In this document: positions 9,133 through 17,774 of the stretch, one piece after another | How the letters are laid out: each line of letters begins with the position of its first letter | How positions within the stretch are numbered: the first letter of the stretch is position 1 | Origin: Sphingobacteriales bacterium | GTDB lineage: Bacteria > Bacteroidota > Bacteroidia > Chitinophagales > CAIOSU01 | NCBI GenBank assembly: GCA_027486795.1 | Contig: JAIXOI010000054.1 | Location: 1-41,418 of the forward strand | Length of the DNA stretch: 41,418 bases | Direction: 5' to 3' | Program-made: the position numbers and the translations under genes | Notes under the pieces: model-generated | What the model was told of the DNA's origin: nothing | Databases searched by the model: none | Seen by the model: only the letters and a program-made list of their open reading frames with translations

Positions 9133-10557
<1,425 letters not shown>

Positions 10558-10577: not shown

Positions 10578-10634
10578 TTACATACACCAATACCTATCCG
10601 GCTGCCGGGGTGGACAACAACAGCACATCATCAT
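10578..10634 (-). CDS. Poly-cysteine leader peptide upstream of metY
   Basis: An 18-codon frame, MMMCCCCPPRQPDRYWCM then TAA. Three ATG codons are followed by TGC TGT TGT TGT, and the frame ends with TGT ATG. It is too short for the usual gene finders. Its position, four Cys codons in a row, immediate stop and a terminator 24 bases later match the classical layout of an amino-acid attenuator. A ribosome stalled for lack of Cys-tRNA would prevent the terminator from forming and let metY and the following genes be read. Poly-cysteine leaders with such a role are known in mycobacteria. The Met codons at both ends may add methionine sensing (speculative). Confidence 0.72.
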   Translation of the reverse strand: MMMCCCCPPRQPDRYWCM

Positions 10635-10639
10635 GGTTT

Positions 10640-10731
10640 GGGTGTATTGGTTCATTGGTTATTGGTTATTGGTTATTGGTTACGTTATTAATTGGTACAT
10701 CAGCACATCAGCACATCAGCACATCAATAAA
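10640..10731. repeat. GGTTATT and ACATCAGC word arrays
   Basis: TTCATTGGTTATTGGTTATT with further copies is followed by GGTACATCAGCACATCAGCA with more CACATC units, so two word families stand side by side. This spacer must hold the promoter of the metY leader if the unit is separately transcribed, but no clear Bacteroidota promoter is visible in it. Confidence 0.6.
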
Positions 10732-11889
10732 TTAGTATTTAGCTAGGCTAGTATCTACCTCATCGGCGTAGGCCAAAATGCCGCCTTTTAGGTTGTATAG
10801 GTTATCAAAACCAAACTGGCTTTCAAGCAACCGAACGGCATTGGCGCTGCGGGCACCGCTGCGGCAATGGATGATTACTTGTTTGCCTTTGGCTATGCGC
10901 TCTGCGTTGGCTGGCACTGTTGCCAATGGAATTAGTTCGGCACCTAAGTTTGCTAGGTTTGCAATGTCATATTCATACTCTTCGCGCACGTCAATCAATT
11001 GAAAATCGGCACCTTTGTCTTTCAAAGCCTTCAATTCGGTTACGGATATTTCTTTCACGGTATTGTCTTTTTTAGCGGTTTCTACAGCTGGTTTTTCAAT
11101 ACCACAAAATTGCTCATAATCAATGAGTTTTTCAATCTTCGGTGCGTTCGGGTCTTTTTTGAATTTGAGGGTACGGCTCTCAAAGCTTAGCGCATCAAAC
11201 AAGTACAATTTACCAATCAATGGCTCGCCAATGCCCGTAATTACTTTAATTACTTCGCTAGCTTGGAGGCTGCCAACTATGCCCGGCAATACACCCAGCA
11301 CACCACCTTCGGCGCAGCTAGGCACCAGGCCTGGTGGCGGTGGGGTAGGGTATAGGTCGCGGTAATTGGGGCCAAACGTGCCATCGGCATTTTTGTAATT
11401 GAACACCGTTACCTGCCCATCGAAACGGAAGATAGAGGCGTACACATTGGTTTTGCCCAACAACACGGCCGCATCATTTACTAAGTAGCGGGTAGGGAAG
11501 TTATCGGTGCCGTCGGCTACTAGGTCGTAGTCTTTCAAAATATCCAATGCATTGCTGCTGTGCAATTGCAGGTTGTATGTGTTTATGGTAATGTAAGGGT
11601 TCAGGGCACGCAACCTATCGGCAGCGGCATCCACCTTCGGGCGACCCACATCGCCAACACCAAACAGCACTTGGCGCTGCAAGTTGCTATCGTCTACCTT
11701 GTCAAAATCGACAATACCGATGGTGCCCACACCAGCAGCGGCCAAGTATAACAATACCGGGCTGCCCAGGCCACCAGTGCCAACTACCAGCACCTTGGCT
11801 TCTTTCAATTTGCGCTGCCCCTCCATACCAAATTCTGGTATAATGATGTGGCGGCTATAGCGTTCTAGTTCTTGCTTTGAAAATGACAT
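10732..11889 (-). CDS. moeZ: MoeZ-like adenylyltransferase with rhodanese domain
   Basis: A 385-residue ThiF/MoeB-type E1-like enzyme fused to a rhodanese. The ATP loop is VVGTGGLGSP (residues 36-43), with DFDKVDDSNLQRQ, the DGTDNFPTR aspartate and PPPPGLVPSCAEGGVLG containing Cys192, a segment strikingly like mycobacterial MoeZ. The rhodanese occupies about 280-385 with active-site Cys342 in HCRSGARS. No paired CxxC zinc motifs are seen. It would adenylate the C-terminal glycine of the CysO-like carrier and then convert it to thiocarboxylate using sulfur from its rhodanese cysteine. The carrier gene is next upstream, supporting this. It may also serve molybdopterin or thiamin sulfur transfer. 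Confidence 0.9.
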   Translation of the reverse strand: MSFSKQELERYSRHIIIPEFGMEGQRKLKEAKVLVVGTGGLGSPVLLYLAAAGVGTIGIVDFDKVDDSNLQRQVLFGVGDVGRPKVDAAADRLRALNPYITINTYNLQLHSSNALDILKDYDLVADGTDNFPTRYLVNDAAVLLGKTNVYASIFRFDGQVTVFNYKNADGTFGPNYRDLYPTPPPPGLVPSCAEGGVLGVLPGIVGSLQASEVIKVITGIGEPLIGKLYLFDALSFESRTLKFKKDPNAPKIEKLIDYEQFCGIEKPAVETAKKDNTVKEISVTELKALKDKGADFQLIDVREEYEYDIANLANLGAELIPLATVPANAERIAKGKQVIIHCRSGARSANAVRLLESQFGFDNLYNLKGGILAYADEVDTSLAKY

Positions 11890-11998: not shown

Positions 11999-12277
11999 TT
12001 AAATACATCCACCTGCTATTGCTGGCACTATACTTATTATGGTTCCACTCTCTACAAGCGTTGCGTTGTTGTCAAGGTCTTTTATATCGTCTTCGCCAAC
12101 AAACACTTTGATAAATTGACGCACTTGGCCATTATCGTCAAATAGGTGGCCTTTTACGCCGGGGTAGGCAGTAGTCAATTCATTCAATGCTTCGCCCACG
12201 TTGCCCGAAGTTGCCTGAAAACTGCTCTGGTTGTCGGTAAACTTACGAAGCGGGGTAGGTATGATAATTTTTGCCAT
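11999..12277 (-). CDS. cysO: CysO-like sulfur carrier protein (ubiquitin fold) with GGCI tail
   Basis: A 92-residue MoaD/ThiS-type beta-grasp protein. It resembles mycobacterial CysO along its length (IIIPTPLRKFT, FIKVFVGEDDI, ISIVPAIAGG). Family function: the C-terminal Gly-Gly is activated to a thiocarboxylate, attacked by O-phosphoserine through CysM, and the cysteine is released by a JAMM peptidase. All three partners are neighbouring genes. Here the protein does not end at Gly-Gly but continues with Cys-Ile, so it must be trimmed before use, as for the Gly-Gly-Cys-Phe tail of QbsE cut by QbsD. The Mec-like gene just upstream is the obvious processing enzyme. Confidence 0.9.
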   Translation of the reverse strand: MAKIIIPTPLRKFTDNQSSFQATSGNVGEALNELTTAYPGVKGHLFDDNGQVRQFIKVFVGEDDIKDLDNNATLVESGTIISIVPAIAGGCI

Positions 12278-12359: not shown

Positions 12360-12824
12360 TCATTGGTTAAAGCTCGATAGGAACACATCCACATCAAACG
12401 GGTTGTTTTGGTTTATTACGGTCTCTTGTTCAAACCTGCCTTGATCGTTCAGTTTCCAAGAAAGTACGGCAGCAGTTTTGGCCTTCTTTACCGATACAAT
12501 AATGTATGAGAAGTAAGGCAAGGCTTGACGCAAATCGTGCTCGCTAGGTATGGCCGCATGCTCAGGGTGGCTGTGGTATACGCCTAGTAGCGTCAAACCG
12601 TTTTCGTCGGCATACTGCTCGGCTTTCATATAGTCAATGGCCGAAATTTCGAACCGGCGCTCGCGGTTTTCTTCCTTGGTATTTACTACCGGTATCGCCT
12701 CAGTAACAGTGCGCTTATCATCATCGCTACCATAAAAAAAGCCGCAGCACTCATGCGGATAAGTACTCTCTGCATCTTTAATGATCACTTTTCGTGCATC
12801 CTCAGTAAGTATTAGTTTGCTCAT
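12360..12824 (-). CDS. mec: Mec-like JAMM (M67) metallopeptidase
   Basis: A 154-residue single-domain MPN+/JAMM zinc peptidase. The motif is complete: Glu in YPHECCGF, then HSHPEHAAIPSEHD, which is H-x-H-P-x6-S-x2-D. In the CysO pathway Mec hydrolyses the CysO-cysteine amide to free cysteine. Because the CysO-like protein here carries Cys-Ile beyond Gly-Gly, this enzyme may also mature the carrier. It lies between the cysM-like and cysO-like genes, and the surrounding spacers are short repeats with no obvious terminator. Catalytic residues look intact, so an active enzyme is expected. Confidence 0.92.
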   Translation of the reverse strand: MSKLILTEDARKVIIKDAESTYPHECCGFFYGSDDDKRTVTEAIPVVNTKEENRERRFEISAIDYMKAEQYADENGLTLLGVYHSHPEHAAIPSEHDLRQALPYFSYIIVSVKKAKTAAVLSWKLNDQGRFEQETVINQNNPFDVDVFLSSFNQ

Positions 12825-12984: not shown

Positions 12985-13908
12985 CTATATTTTTAACTCC
13001 GGATAATTGCTGCCGTGGTCAGGGAAAACCGTTACCACAACGCCGCTATCCAATTCATTTGCCACTCTTATAGCACCCACCAAATTGGCCGCCGATGATG
13101 GACTTAATAGCAATCCATCTTTCAAAGCCACTTCTTTTATTAATGCATAAGCCTCTTCGGTGCTCACCTCCAAGTTGCGGTCGGCTAAGGTAGGGTCGTA
13201 TATTTTAGGCACTTTAGCAGTTTCCAAGTGTTTCCAACCTTCCAAAGCGTGCATCGCAAAATCTGGTTGCAAAGAAATTACCTCAATATTGGGGTTGTTC
13301 TCTTTCAATCGGCGAGCGGTACCTGTGAATGTGCCAGTTGTGCCTAGTCCGGTAACAAAGTGGGTTATCTTACCACGGGTTTGGTCAAATATTTCACGGC
13401 CAGTGCTATAGTAGTGCGCCTTCCAGTTGTTTTCGTTGCTATATTGGTCGGCATAATAGTATAGCTCTGGGTTGTTTTGATATAATTCCAGTGCATATTC
13501 CTGTGCGCCATCGGTGCCTTCAAATCGGCTGGTTTCAATAATGTTTACACCATGTGCTTTAAGAGCGTTTTTCTTTTGGTTGCTTGCGTTGGCTGGCAGG
13601 GCTAAAGTCACTTGCAATCCAAGTGCTGCGCCAATTGCGCCATACGCCACGCCAGTATTGCCACTGCTGGCATCCAACAGGTGAATATGCTCATCAATTT
13701 TACCAGAGGCTACCGCTTCTTTTATGATATTGAAAGCAGGGCGAGCCTTTACACTATTGCCCAGCTGGTACCATTCCAGTTTAGCGTAGATGGTAACACC
13801 CGGTTTACTAAAAGTTCCGTTCAACGGAAACAGAGGGGTGTTTCCGATGAACGGTTCCAATGAAAAAACCCGATTCAGTAAACTCGATTTCGATTCTTTG
13901 ATGAGCAT
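12985..13908 (-). CDS. cysM: CysM-like PLP-dependent cysteine synthase
   Basis: A 307-residue fold-type II PLP enzyme. The lysine that binds PLP is K54 in LGNSVKARPA, the phosphate/substrate loop is SSGNTG (82-86), and the glycine-rich PLP loop is GLGTTGTFTG. The family makes cysteine from an activated serine. Its position next to cysO-, mec- and moeZ-like genes argues that it uses O-phosphoserine and CysO thiocarboxylate rather than O-acetylserine and free sulfide, though specificity residues cannot be verified by eye. Second gene of the unit led by the peroxiredoxin gene and the six-Cys leader. Confidence 0.9.
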   Translation of the reverse strand: MLIKESKSSLLNRVFSLEPFIGNTPLFPLNGTFSKPGVTIYAKLEWYQLGNSVKARPAFNIIKEAVASGKIDEHIHLLDASSGNTGVAYGAIGAALGLQVTLALPANASNQKKNALKAHGVNIIETSRFEGTDGAQEYALELYQNNPELYYYADQYSNENNWKAHYYSTGREIFDQTRGKITHFVTGLGTTGTFTGTARRLKENNPNIEVISLQPDFAMHALEGWKHLETAKVPKIYDPTLADRNLEVSTEEAYALIKEVALKDGLLLSPSSAANLVGAIRVANELDSGVVVTVFPDHGSNYPELKI

Positions 13909-14175: not shown

Positions 14176-14844
14176 TTATGAAAGCTCTTTTTTGCTTAAG
14201 TAAAAGTCCACTTTCTCGTAGGTGGTGTTAGCTAGTCGCTCTTCAACTTCTAACAAGGTTTTTGGCGGTGGCACAATTACTTTATCGCCTGGGCGCCAGT
14301 TTGCTGGCAAGGCTACGCTGTATTTATCTGCCGTTTGAAGGGCTTCAATTACGCGCTTAATTTCATCAAGGTTCCGGCCAATATTCAACGGGTAATAGAT
14401 AATGGCACGGATAACGTTCTTTGGGTCGATAACAAACACCGCACGAACGGTGGCGGTTTGGCTCTCGCCTGGGTGAATCAAACCATATAGCTGTGCCACT
14501 TTTGTATCTAAGTCTGCCACAATCGGAAAATCAAGATATACACCAGTTTTTTCTCTTACGTTTTGCACCCAAGCCACATGGCTGTGTATGCTATCAATGC
14601 TCACACCAATCAAATTGGTGTTGCGGGCGGCAAAGAACTCCTTTTCGCGTGCAAACTCAATCAACTCTGTGGTGCAAACTGGTGTAAAATCGGCAGGGTG
14701 AGAGAATAGTATCGTGTATTTATCTTTCTTGAAATCATAAAAATTCAAGTTACCCACGGTGGTAATGGCAGTAAAGTTTGGGGCGGCATCGCCAATGCGA
14801 GGGATGCCGTTTTGCACTATTGGGTTTTCGGTTACTGTTGACAT
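14176..14844 (-). CDS. 1-Cys peroxiredoxin (Prx6 type)
   Basis: A 222-residue peroxiredoxin. The peroxidatic cysteine is Cys57 in HPADFTPVCTTE and it is the only cysteine in the whole protein, so the enzyme is strictly 1-Cys. The length and the long C-terminal arm (VALPANWRPGDKVIVPPP) are those of the Prx6 group, about 220 residues. It reduces peroxides and must be recycled by an outside thiol. It is the first structural gene after the six-cysteine leader and terminator and is followed by the cysM/mec/cysO/moeZ-like genes, tying peroxide defence to cysteine supply. No signal peptide, so cytoplasmic. Confidence 0.95.
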   Translation of the reverse strand: MSTVTENPIVQNGIPRIGDAAPNFTAITTVGNLNFYDFKKDKYTILFSHPADFTPVCTTELIEFAREKEFFAARNTNLIGVSIDSIHSHVAWVQNVREKTGVYLDFPIVADLDTKVAQLYGLIHPGESQTATVRAVFVIDPKNVIRAIIYYPLNIGRNLDEIKRVIEALQTADKYSVALPANWRPGDKVIVPPPKTLLEVEERLANTTYEKVDFYLSKKELS

Positions 14845-14904: not shown

Positions 14905-14941
14905 AATGAAAAAAGCCCTTCCGTTTCGGCGGAAGGGCTTT
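14905..14941 (-). terminator. Intrinsic terminator in the prx leader (attenuator)
   Basis: A perfect 12-bp stem, AAAGCCCTTCCG with CGGAAGGGCTTT (14912-14923 with 14930-14941), has a six-base loop and TTTTTTCATTTT after it on the minus strand. It is 38 bases past the stop of the poly-Cys leader and about 65 before the prx start. GGCGGA plus GGG inside the leader frame (15001-15012) can pair with CCC and TCCGCC of the first arm and loop (14928-14938), a plausible antiterminator. Confidence 0.82.
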
Positions 14942-14979
14942 GTATAGCTTATCGTGTTCGGATGTATCTTTCTACAAGA

Positions 14980-15045
14980 CTACCTACACAAATACAACGC
15001 ACCCTGTCCGCCTGCGGCGAAACAACAGCAGCAACAACACATCAT
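14980..15045 (-). CDS. Poly-cysteine leader peptide upstream of prx-cysM-mec-cysO-moeZ
   Basis: A 21-codon frame starting ATG ATG and then six cysteine codons in a row (TGT TGT TGC TGC TGT TGT). It continues FAAGGQG and ends LYLCR before TAG. Mixed TGT and TGC codons argue against a simple triplet-repeat accident. Next come 38 bases and a strong intrinsic terminator, then prx and four genes of carrier-bound cysteine synthesis. This is the expected layout of a cysteine-sensing attenuator: with Cys-tRNA scarce the ribosome stalls in the Cys run and the antiterminator forms. It shares the ATGATG start, Cys block and a Tyr-x-Cys ending with the metY leader. Confidence 0.78.
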   Translation of the reverse strand: MMCCCCCCFAAGGQGALYLCR

Positions 15046-15092
15046 GTTGTTCATTGCTTGGGTCATATTGGTGGTAGTATTCATTTCGGTTG

Positions 15093-15123
15093 CTAATCTA
15101 TGGTATAATAACCCAATTGTCAA
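15093..15123 (-). promoter_or_regulatory. Possible Bacteroidota-type promoter of the prx leader
   Basis: On the minus strand a TTG at 15123-15121 is followed after 20 bases by TAGATTAG (15100-15093), five of six defined positions of the Bacteroidota -7 box TAnnTTTG. The start of transcription would be near 15085, giving about 40 bases before the leader ATG. Weak by itself, and supported mainly by position. Confidence 0.35.
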
Positions 15124-15177: not shown

Positions 15178-15862
15178 GATAATGAGGGAGAAAAGTTTAA
15201 AGTTTCAAAATGACACTTAAGCTCAACTCAGTTTCTTTTAAGCTTTTTTTATCCTTTATAACAGTTAATGTGGATATTCCTCTTTTGGGTATTTTATTCT
15301 TATATATGCATCTGTGTGTAAAAAGTATGTATTATGGCTGAATTAGGCAATAAAAGTGAAATTTTAGTAAACGAAGTTTTAGAGGCTTTGTACGCAATTG
15401 AGGTAAGAAAGACTCAATATACCACAGAGAAGAATGTTGAAAATGTAGTTTCAAAGGCACTTCATTCAAGCTTTAACCATCTCAAGCAACAATATAATAT
15501 TGGTGGATATTTAGGATTAAAAGTAGATATAGATTTAGGTGACGGTCAAGTAGGTATTGAAGTTAAACTTGCGAAGGATTTGAACACGTCAGGTATCCAA
15601 CGTTTGTTTGGACAAGTATTATATTATTCCCGCAGGGTTTACAGAAAAAACTTGATTGTTTTAATTGTTGGAACAGATAAACAACAAACCCAGGTGATCA
15701 AAGAAGTGCAGTCAATAATCATGGAGCAAGGAATACAATACTACTATTTGAAAGTTAAGCAATGATGGAACTTAGTTTTTGCAGGATAGTTGGAGTTCCT
15801 TATTAAGCGCTATTTAGAGGTAATTTTAATTGTTTAATTATCGATAATGAGGGAGAAAAGTT
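15178..15862. mobile_element. Single-gene cassette between 20-bp perfect direct repeats
   Basis: GATAATGAGGGAGAAAAGTT occurs at 15178-15197 and again, identical, at 15843-15862. The bases outside the match differ. Between the copies is an AT-rich 645-base segment with one plus-strand gene of PD-(D/E)XK type. The arrangement resembles a site duplicated on insertion, or attL/attR, of a minimal cassette. There is no transposase or integrase inside, so mobilisation would need outside enzymes. Confidence 0.55.
15334..15765 (+). CDS. Small PD-(D/E)XK nuclease-like protein
   Basis: A 143-residue soluble protein. A beta-hairpin VDIDLGDGQVGIEVKLAK gives D65 or D67 and E76-x-K78, the spacing of the PD-(D/E)XK nuclease core, and IQRLFGQVLYYSRRVY supplies the Q-containing helix that follows the core in many members. 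An N-terminal helix NEVLEAL could give the extra acidic residue. It ends with alternating strand-helix-strand. I cannot name a family. It could be a restriction-type nuclease or an inactive fold relative. Alone, AT-rich, and bracketed by direct repeats, it reads as recently acquired; no methyltransferase or immunity gene is beside it. Confidence 0.6.
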   Translation: MAELGNKSEILVNEVLEALYAIEVRKTQYTTEKNVENVVSKALHSSFNHLKQQYNIGGYLGLKVDIDLGDGQVGIEVKLAKDLNTSGIQRLFGQVLYYSRRVYRKNLIVLIVGTDKQQTQVIKEVQSIIMEQGIQYYYLKVKQ

Positions 15863-15926: not shown

Positions 15927-17774
15927 CTAATAAACCACTACCTTTTGATTGTAAACGTTGCCTTTGCCATCATTGCCTTGTAGCACATATATACCTGCTG
16001 GTGTAGTATCTGGTACCATTAGCATGTTGCAGTTGGTGCAAGTATTAACCAATCGGCCAGATAAATCATAAAGCGTTGCATCAATGCTTGCCGAAAGCTG
16101 TATGGCCTTACCAGCATTAATCGGGTTGGGGTAAACGGTAAGCTTTTCGCTGCTAACCAAATTGATACCAGTAGTAGTTTCAAAATAATCGCTTGCTACA
16201 TATCTTTTGGTTGCAAACCAAAACCAATCGGGATTGGTGGTAACATAAGCAATCATCTCGTTGGTATTAAATTCCACTTTGCTCATGGTCCGTTTCCACA
16301 AATCCGCCTGTCCATCAAGCCAAAGTACATTGGTGTAGTAATTTGAGTCGAGCGATAAGGTAACAATTGACGAATCTGCAGAAAAACTAATATCCATATC
16401 TGGACGTAAATCATCCAGGCTCAATTGGTTATCGAAATACGGATAAAAGCGATACGTTTGAAAAGTATATGCCTGTTTTATGCCAAAAATCAAGGTGTTG
16501 TCGTGCTTCCAAGCTCCTAGTAAAAATTTACTTGTGTCATTAGAATACATGGGATGGCTGCCACCAATGTTACCATAAACAATACCGGTATCAATTTCGG
16601 CAACAGAGTTGGCGTATCTGTTTTGTAGCAAAATACCTCCATTGCCCATACCTGCACTATGGGCCATTTTATTGTATAGTCCTTTTTGGTAGGTGGTTAT
16701 CGAGTCGGCAATACTTTGTGTAAATACTTTGTAACCAGTTCTTGGATTTGCTCTGCAACCTCCATTGTCCCAAAATGATTTGATGATTTTGGTCCCATCG
16801 GTAAGCAAATATTGAATATCGTGTGCATTGTTTACCCAAACAGAGTCGTCAGACTGATGGCCCGTGTGGTTTTGCTTTGAGTTTTGCCTAACCGAGTCTA
16901 TTTCCCAGCTGTTGCCAACTAGGTTCACAGTTAACTCAAACTCTGCATCCACATTTCGATTATATATACCAAGTTTCAGGGTATTAGCATTTGTTTTTAT
17001 GGCAGCAATAGAGTTTGGGTGAAAGTAATCTGCAATGCCGTCAATAGTATCGAGGGTGGTGAAGCTGCAAGTGCTTTTGGTGAGGTTGCTCAAACTAATG
17101 CCCCAAGTAGTATCGGCAGCTCGCCAATGCAGCACGGTATCCAATTGTGGCGAGAGACAAACTATTGACGGAAAGGATATACCCAATGAATCTTCGGAGC
17201 CCAAGGTTGCATAGCCCAGGCCATCGGGCATCAGATAAAACTCATGCGGGTCACTTATTATCCACGATTTGATGATTTCAAATTTACGATTACAAACGAA
17301 TGCTTTGTTGGGCTGGCTATTGTTATTGTGTGATGTAAGCCATGTTAAGAGCTGTTCTTCGGGCCAATACCTAAAATTCCAGATGGGTAAAACACCTTCG
17401 TCGGGCACTAATCTAATAGCTGCGGGTATTTTTTCGTAAGCATCGAATACCAACATCATTTCTTCAGATAAGTAAGCCGATTGCGTTGCCCAAAGCCCAT
17501 ATCTTAAGCCAGTTTCGGCCATTGCCTGGTTGTTGTATACCATTGCATACGGAAATAGGATGTTGTTGGAGTCGGGTGGCAGAGGCTCGAATATGCGCTG
17601 GGCCACGGCCGCTTGATGCCCTAGGCAGGCAACCAGCACGATAAGCATGAACCTTTTGGCTTGAAGTAATATATTTAATTGAGATACAATTGCATTATTA
17701 GCAACCAGCCGTCTGGCGCTCGGTGTTCCTTTTCCCAGTGGCATTGGGTTGGGGAACAAACTTAAATCGTCCAT
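15927..17774 (-). CDS. Secreted protein with T9SS C-terminal sorting domain
   Basis: Up to 615 residues. The last 70, from LTVYPNPINAGKAIQL through LYDLSGRLV to GIYVLQ and KVVVY, are a type A T9SS sorting domain, which targets the protein across the outer membrane. The body has several Trp- and Asp-rich segments that recur loosely (HSWxx, YDxx), suggestive of a beta-propeller, but I assign no family. A signal sequence, MLIVLVACLGHQAAVAQ, starts at Met43 (17648), and the 42 residues before it look non-coding, so the real start may be 17648 (573 residues), though Met43 alone gives no basic N-region. The gene is alone. Confidence 0.85.
   Translation of the reverse strand: MDDLSLFPNPMPLGKGTPSARRLVANNAIVSQLNILLQAKRFMLIVLVACLGHQAAVAQRIFEPLPPDSNNILFPYAMVYNNQAMAETGLRYGLWATQSAYLSEEMMLVFDAYEKIPAAIRLVPDEGVLPIWNFRYWPEEQLLTWLTSHNNNSQPNKAFVCNRKFEIIKSWIISDPHEFYLMPDGLGYATLGSEDSLGISFPSIVCLSPQLDTVLHWRAADTTWGISLSNLTKSTCSFTTLDTIDGIADYFHPNSIAAIKTNANTLKLGIYNRNVDAEFELTVNLVGNSWEIDSVRQNSKQNHTGHQSDDSVWVNNAHDIQYLLTDGTKIIKSFWDNGGCRANPRTGYKVFTQSIADSITTYQKGLYNKMAHSAGMGNGGILLQNRYANSVAEIDTGIVYGNIGGSHPMYSNDTSKFLLGAWKHDNTLIFGIKQAYTFQTYRFYPYFDNQLSLDDLRPDMDISFSADSSIVTLSLDSNYYTNVLWLDGQADLWKRTMSKVEFNTNEMIAYVTTNPDWFWFATKRYVASDYFETTTGINLVSSEKLTVYPNPINAGKAIQLSASIDATLYDLSGRLVNTCTNCNMLMVPDTTPAGIYVLQGNDGKGNVYNQKVVVY

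Follow-up and report, generated by a model that had tools for sequence, protein, structure and literature searches.

The window, which is the whole 41,418-nucleotide stretch of DNA that was analyzed, very probably contains a real cysteine attenuator in which a short open reading frame with a run of six Cys codons is followed by an intrinsic terminator and by the genes of a predicted cysteine synthesis unit. Judged from its sequence, the element is viewed with considerable confidence as a cysteine-responsive transcription attenuator that is mediated by the ribosome. The preliminary description of this DNA had proposed a cysteine-sensing attenuator at this site, and the proposal is supported by the leader, the terminator, the target genes and a competing pairing in the prx leader, and by retention of the arrangement in the genus. 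That account was of one leader only; another Cys leader, located ahead of metY and likewise followed by a terminator, went unlisted there. The coordinates of both leaders and of the genes behind them are collected in Table 1.

Table 1. Positions of the leader elements and downstream genes in the window.
Feature	Position	Strand	Remarks
Putative promoter of leader 1	15123..15093	minus	TTG at 15123-15121, 20 nt, TAGATTAG at 15100-15093
Leader ORF 1, MNTTTNMTQAMNNMMCCCCCCFAAGGQGALYLCR	15084..14980	minus	34 codons and TAG; no indel inside in 4 genus genomes
Six Cys codons of leader 1	15039..15022	minus	six Cys in 4/4 genus genomes
Segment 1, UUCGCC	15021..15016	minus	can pair with segment 2 (small hairpin UUCGCC-GCA-GGCGGA)
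Segment 2, GGCGGACAGGG, predicted antiterminator strand	15012..15002	minus	invariant in 4 genomes; pairs with terminator arm
Intrinsic terminator 1	14941..14909	minus	12-bp stem, 6-nt loop, 6 T
prx, 1-Cys-type peroxiredoxin	14844..14176	minus	PF00578, PF10417; NF009668 over cut-off
cysM-like cysteine synthase	13908..12985	minus	PF00291; TIGR01138 best but under cut-off
mec-like JAB peptidase	12824..12360	minus	PF14464
cysO-like ubiquitin-fold sulfur carrier	12277..11999	minus	PF02597; SAMP1 model under cut-off
moeZ-like ThiF and rhodanese protein	11889..10732	minus	PF00899, PF00581; MoeZ model under cut-off
Leader ORF 2, MNQYTQTMMMCCCCPPRQPDRYWCM	10655..10578	minus	25 codons and TAA; Cys codons 10625-10614
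Intrinsic terminator 2, AAACCCAGCCGG...CCGAGCTGGGTTTTT	10554..10522	minus	A-U pair replaced by G-C in relatives
metY, O-acetylhomoserine sulfhydrylase	10458..9133	minus	TIGR01326 over cut-off

The preliminary description placed the start of leader 1 at a tandem ATGATG. Re-reading of the coordinates located these codons at 15045-15040 on the minus strand and recovered the 21-codon frame that begins with Met-Met, its TAG stop at 14982-14980 and the Cys run TGT TGT TGC TGC TGT TGT at 15039-15022. Although the 21-codon frame exists, it extends further in the 5′ direction to an ATG at 15084, giving 34 codons that begin MNTTTNMTQAMNNMM. The 34-codon frame is free of indels in four genomes of the genus, whereas indels of 1 nt and 4 nt flank it closely on the upstream and the downstream side, respectively; thus, translation of leader 1 probably starts at 15084 and not at 15045. 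The promoter form of Bacteroidota includes an upstream TTG with its spacing. The promoter-like block ahead of leader 1 is close to this form, TTG...TAnnTTTG, and is largely kept in 4/4 genus genomes; the TAnnTTTG consensus is that given in an extract of a published study (PMC9723704). The AUG at 15084 is positioned 8 nt downstream of the conserved -10-like box. As the promoter-like block ends so close to the AUG, the message of leader 1 may be nearly leaderless.

The terminator behind leader 1 was recovered as first described: 38 nt (14979-14942) separate the stop codon from a perfect 12-bp hairpin, AAAGCCCTTCCG-CCGAAA-CGGAAGGGCTTT, which is followed by six T residues. In four genus genomes arm 1 of the hairpin (segment 3) is invariant and arm 2 differs at few sites, with G-U pairs kept. 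The pairing proposed between arm 1 and the GGCGGA and GGG stretches of leader 1 also was borne out, the duplex having an energy of -20.4 kcal/mol where shuffled sequences averaged -12.3 kcal/mol (300 shuffles, p=0.003; 200 shuffles, p=0.010). A duplex of the post-Cys segment with arm 1 and the loop beat shuffles in 4/4 prx leaders of the genus (p=0.003 each), these leaders being close relatives. Although this part of the folding check stood, equilibrium folding did not reproduce the prx switch. With arm 4 unmade, leader 1 formed about 9.8 pairs between segments 2 and 3 in all four ribosome states, including that with the ribosome at the stop codon. When leader 2 was folded with a blocked ribosome footprint and arm 4 unmade, 7 such pairs were present in the stalled state vs. 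0 with the ribosome at the stop codon. Pairing between segments 1 and 2 of leader 1 amounted to 5.3 expected pairs in the full-length fold and to none before arm 4 was made. Once arm 4 was present, the 3:4 pairing won in every ribosome state of both leaders. As equilibrium folds favor 3:4 in every state when arm 4 exists, a switch would have to rest on timing.

The working of the switch, from where transcription begins through translation and stalling to the timing and direction of the response, is inferred to be as follows. RNA polymerase would begin a short way ahead of leader ORF 1, with a ribosome behind it. With ample Cys-tRNA, the ribosome would pass the six Cys codons, segment 2 would not be free to hold arm 1, and the 12-bp terminator would form and stop transcription before prx. 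With scarce Cys-tRNA, the ribosome would stall on the Cys codons and cover segment 1; segment 2 (GGCGGACAGGG) would then pair with arm 1 (CCCUUCCGCC), the terminator would be blocked, and the cysteine synthesis unit would be transcribed. Leader 2 and its own terminator are predicted to act in the same way on metY.

Leader 2 starts 76 nt past moeZ, and the two leaders are 4.4 kb apart. It was found in 4/4 genus genomes with a contig that covers the site, and its internal indels are in multiples of three. An antiterminator pairing exists in leader 2 that is no better than shuffles in four genus members (p 0.29-0.42; p 0.36 for the leader of the window). If metY also is read from the upstream promoter, a single unit would hold two Cys attenuators. 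The genes behind leader 1 were placed by Pfam and NCBIfam profiles in the families that make up a prx-cysM-mec-cysO-moeZ unit, in agreement with the preliminary description, and from these families the genes behind both leaders are predicted to make cysteine. The CysO-like carrier of the window ends in AGGCI, and those of the relatives L161, L162, and L163 have the ends AGGSC, AGGC, and AGGCC. These carriers possess extra residues, including Cys, past the Gly-Gly pair, unlike the mycobacterial CysO protein which has a bare GG end. The assignment of the window to Bacteroidota rests on the best matches of metY to named members of the phylum.

With up to one mismatch permitted, the pattern ATGTGYTGYTGYTG was matched twice in the window vs. 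0.15 expected, and each match was exact. In the whole 3.9 Mb genome ATG(TGY)4 occurs at exactly two places, which are the two leaders of the window. The genome contains 59 TGY4 places, four of which are accounted for by the two leaders. No short intergenic ORF was recognized by the criteria used at any of the remaining 55 (47 distinct runs), a few of which are at contig ends where the context is cut; both window leaders qualify as short intergenic ORFs when judged in the same way. In a search of five genus genomes, the prx-type leader was present in G000, G001, G003, and G004, which is 4/4 of those holding the site. As cysM was not found in G002 in this search, the prx-leader site of that genome probably is not assembled. 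The metY leader was present in G000, G001, G002, and G004; in G003 the contig stops short of the site. In G003 (L007/L161) no prx gene intervenes between the Cys leader and cysM, the leader is kept, and the intervening stretch is without a long ORF. Lack of conservation of the Cys run or terminator in relatives, which the preliminary description had named as evidence that would count against an attenuator, is contradicted by the retention of both in the genus.

A search of other Bacteroidota for frames with Cys runs, as suggested in the preliminary description, yielded similar leaders before genes for metY, sulfite reductase, cysH, cysM, and OsmC. In 40 genomes, including that of the window, ATG(TGY)4 was found at 25 places in 17 genomes vs. 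2 for the reversed-pattern control; our sorting assigned 12 of the places to noise and 13 to leaders that precede a sulfur or thiol gene. The longer pattern ATG(TGY)5 occurred at 37 places in 35 genomes when 392 genomes of the phylum were searched (control, 2) and at 49 places in 45 genomes among 347 genomes of the order (control, 1). The 49 places in the order comprised 14 noise matches and 35 leaders before sulfur- or thiol-related genes, namely metY (11), sulfite reductase (10), cysH (5), OsmC (3), prx (2), cysM (2), a metX-like gene (1), and DUF4395 (1). Ten target proteins were checked by Pfam and five more by Pfam or NCBIfam, and the other labels were given from similarity assessed by eye; Pfam identifies the metX-like target no further than as an alpha/beta hydrolase. 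Further targets of Cys leaders were SfnG, PhyH, and DUF4395 followed by metY (L043), and the longest runs reached ten Cys codons (L231). In five genomes of one genus (L032-L036), poly-Cys ORFs with Cys before the stop codon are located ~80 nt ahead of a PhyH dioxygenase gene; no terminator was seen at these PhyH loci. At twelve loci of family f38 (L041-L053 except L044), a DUF4395 gene is preceded by a poly-Cys leader and a strong terminator, and our guess is that the family represents a Chlorobium relative (best match L073, 60%). Family f18 was read as Saprospiraceae from metY best matches.

A competing pairing between leader and terminator was assessed across a wider set. Removal of near-duplicates reduced 96 candidates to 55, of which 54 were tested and one was too short. 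Own leader/terminator pairs reached p<0.05 in 26/54 cases vs. 10/162 for mismatched pairs (Mann-Whitney p=4e-11), with 200 shuffles per matched pair and 100 per mismatched pair; the remaining 28 of the 54 leaders did not reach this level. At least three of the 54 entries (L099, L171, and L175), which were kept, probably are not real leader-terminator pairs. Among the leaders of family f38, 5/6 were no better than shuffles.

The best 80 named metY loci were inspected for a short ORF with at least four Cys in eight codons within 400 nt upstream. Such leaders were found at 27 loci, all of which were among the 69 loci not labeled cyanobacterial or proteobacterial; 42/69 were without one. Controls among the best 80 loci gave 0/69 on the opposite strand, 1/68 downstream, and 0/11 at cyanobacterial or proteobacterial loci, and shuffled sequences gave 1/400. 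The same test applied to other residues at these 80 loci produced 47/80 for Leu-rich and 14/80 for Ser-rich ORFs compared to 27/80 for Cys; Leu and Ser each have six codons and Cys has two. The leader-bearing taxa include Mucilaginibacter, Pedobacter, Pontibacter, Hymenobacter, Thermonema, Haliscomenobacter, and Bernardetia. When 32 named metY Cys-leader candidates were scanned for a hairpin that precedes a T-run and has an energy of -7 kcal/mol or lower, a procedure that misses weak T-runs, five terminators were called, of which that at L119 was convincing and those at L067, L086, L087, and L099 were judged spurious. For most named metY leaders the scan thus revealed no intrinsic terminator, and the mechanism therefore is not uniform in the phylum. 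In many metY leaders from elsewhere in Bacteroidota, Cys is the last residue or nearly so. Within the order, a strand-aware count placed a Cys leader at 4/13 metY loci, three of the 13 being more distant (51-53% identity).

Matches to the SAM-I riboswitch (RF00162) were present in 50 of the 69 named metY loci scanned (among the best 80) and were just upstream of metY in 49; L090, in which the riboswitch is 1.7 kb away, was left out, as were the minus-strand matches at L037, L145, and L185. The riboswitch accompanied 26 of the 27 named leader-bearing metY loci in this set, the exception being L119 which, like the window, has a terminator and no SAM-I match. Among 51 SAM-bearing loci (49 named and two unnamed), a leader with at least four Cys in eight codons followed in 27 and one with at least three in 33. 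In 27 of these 33 the leader AUG is 5-15 nt past the last base of the aptamer, most often 7. This composite of riboswitch and leader, examples of which are L057, L060, L070, L072, L094, and L117, is mostly without an intrinsic terminator. For a control set, a draw of 60 class genomes supplied 57 SAM riboswitches that had not been selected by gene; one sub-threshold match was left out. Leaders with at least three Cys were found in 5/6 cases before metY, in 2/51 before other genes, and in 0/34 before genes that we take to be metH-like from a sequence motif, one of which (L334) was checked by Pfam. At two loci of genome G107 (L337 and L348), a SAM riboswitch precedes a Cys-rich short ORF with no metY behind. 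Although in many relatives the Cys leader of metY is immediately preceded by the riboswitch, RF00162 was not found in the window, and a SAM riboswitch at the window's metY was rejected. The single SAM riboswitch found in the window's genome precedes a homocysteine S-methyltransferase gene (L334, by Pfam). No Rfam family, the T-box included, matched the window at the gathering score; two weak matches (E values of 1 and 1.8) were far under the cut-offs and were discarded as candidate elements.

Sulfite reductase was detected at threshold in 35/148 genomes of the order. At least one Cys leader preceded the gene at 17 of the 35 loci and two leaders in series at 8/35, vs. none on the opposite strand. 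The 35 loci include L227, which looks gene-internal, and L249, which has no upstream DNA, and 18/35 are without a leader. In the double arrangements inspected ahead of sulfite reductase, a separate terminator usually accompanies each leader. Loci with double leaders are L189/L196, L190, L191, L192/L197, L207, L208, L218, L219, L224, L228, L232, L235, L240, and L245. Genomes G000-G003 had no sulfite reductase at threshold, although metY was found in G000 and G001 and cysM in G000, G001, and G003.

The hairpin might be incidental if attenuation were coupled to Rho or to translation, as has been proposed for poly-Cys attenuation in mycobacteria, with a stalled ribosome shielding the RNA. Actinobacteria carry poly-Cys ORFs without terminators ahead of cys operons, according to an extract of one report (PMC1262725), for most named metY leaders among the best 80 loci no intrinsic terminator was seen either, many of these leaders having Cys at or near the stop codon, and Rho is encoded in the genome of the window. 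However, both window leaders have strong terminators with T-runs that members of the genus retain, and in leader 1 the terminator arm is matched by segment 2, so that this type of mechanism is considered unlikely for the window. A function of the poly-Cys peptide itself, for example in metal binding or in redox or copper sensing by the nascent chain, is less probable still. By eye, no sequence outside the Cys run is shared between the window leaders or between families, and the targets mostly serve sulfur assimilation, whereas the prospect that runs of up to ten Cys (L231) could bind metals and the presence of prx and OsmC among the targets, which hints at redox, speak for the peptide. Copper sensing by a nascent protein reportedly has been described and also was counted in favor of this view.

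The arrangement in leader 1 could in principle result from a Cys run that arose by chance next to a terminator belonging to another gene, a view to which the 12 noise matches among the 25 ATG(TGY)4 places lend some weight. However, the next long upstream ORF in the same direction ends at 15927 and the ORF at 15334-15765 is on the other strand; conservation, the controls, and the occurrence of the two matches at two sulfur genes of one genome also oppose coincidence, the probability of which is negligible. A chance Cys run was ruled out by the reversed-pattern, opposite-strand, and downstream controls, and the assignment of terminator 1 to an upstream gene was rejected because no long ORF is close by in that direction. 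Ribosome-mediated attenuation of transcription in response to cysteine thus is the favored interpretation of the window.

In the phylum more broadly, two forms of Cys leader appear to be in use: one with a terminator and an antiterminator, and one with a riboswitch and a Cys run near the stop codon without an intrinsic terminator. The riboswitch form perhaps is Rho-dependent. There is an even chance that many Bacteroidota run much of their sulfur economy via poly-Cys leaders, with metY governed by a two-input SAM/cysteine gate, with tandem attenuators at sulfite reductase that multiply the response, and with the lineage of the window using terminators and no metY riboswitch. If the two-input gate is true, SAM would set translation of the leader and cysteine would set stalling, and metY would be open only when both are low. 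The composite at metY, together with the double leaders at sulfite reductase, would show a single RNA that integrates SAM and cysteine.

The classical attenuators of amino acid biosynthesis are the trp, his, and leu leaders of enteric bacteria. The window shares with these a short ORF that contains the regulated codons, an intrinsic terminator, a competing antiterminator (in leader 1), and biosynthetic genes downstream. It differs in that the amino acid is cysteine, the phylum is another, segment 2 is inside the ORF in leader 1, and the start codon probably is near the 5′ end of the RNA. Tandem attenuators with two leader ORFs in series are said to precede Salmonella mgtCBR. The mgtCBR leaders sense signals other than Cys, whereas both members of a tandem pair ahead of sulfite reductase contain Cys codons and usually have their own terminators. 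Leaderless poly-Cys leaders reportedly feature in the title of a 2020 article by Canestrari et al. Poly-Cys leaders are positioned ahead of cys/cbs operons in Mycobacterium, Propionibacterium, and Bifidobacterium, with no conserved terminator hairpin according to an extract of the relevant study (PMC1262725). The window resembles these actinobacterial leaders in having an ORF with a Cys run before cysteine genes and, as predicted here, a start codon near the transcription start, but differs in that each of its leaders has a terminator and one of them an antiterminator. The actinobacterial leaders are matched more closely by those metY leaders elsewhere in Bacteroidota in which a terminator is missing than by the window leaders.

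Attenuators in Bacteroidetes/Chlorobi are said to be listed by Lopatovskaya et al. in a paper of 2010. The uORFC-8-2 motif ahead of cysS in Rhodobacterales has two Cys codons in an upstream ORF and an intrinsic terminator, as stated in an extract of the source (PMC8632094). Cys codons and a terminator therefore are shared with the window, whereas the target of uORFC-8-2 is a tRNA synthetase and the phylum is different. For Flavobacterium psychrophilum, leader-peptide attenuation has been proposed ahead of amino acid operons; these candidates and the window both concern leader peptides of Bacteroidota, the amino acid being unnamed in the extract of that work (PMC9723704). The preliminary description regarded Bacteroidota as a group in which no such attenuator was known. 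For cysteine this view stands within open-access full text, in which no report was found and from which subscription literature mostly falls outside; for leader-peptide attenuation in general it does not, in light of the proposal in a flavobacterium in the extract mentioned (PMC9723704). Thus, the kind of attenuator is already known, and the cysteine variant appears to be new for Bacteroidota within the open-access full text searched, and it provides a concrete and testable predicted cysteine switch and a role for short ORFs ahead of sulfur genes in this phylum.
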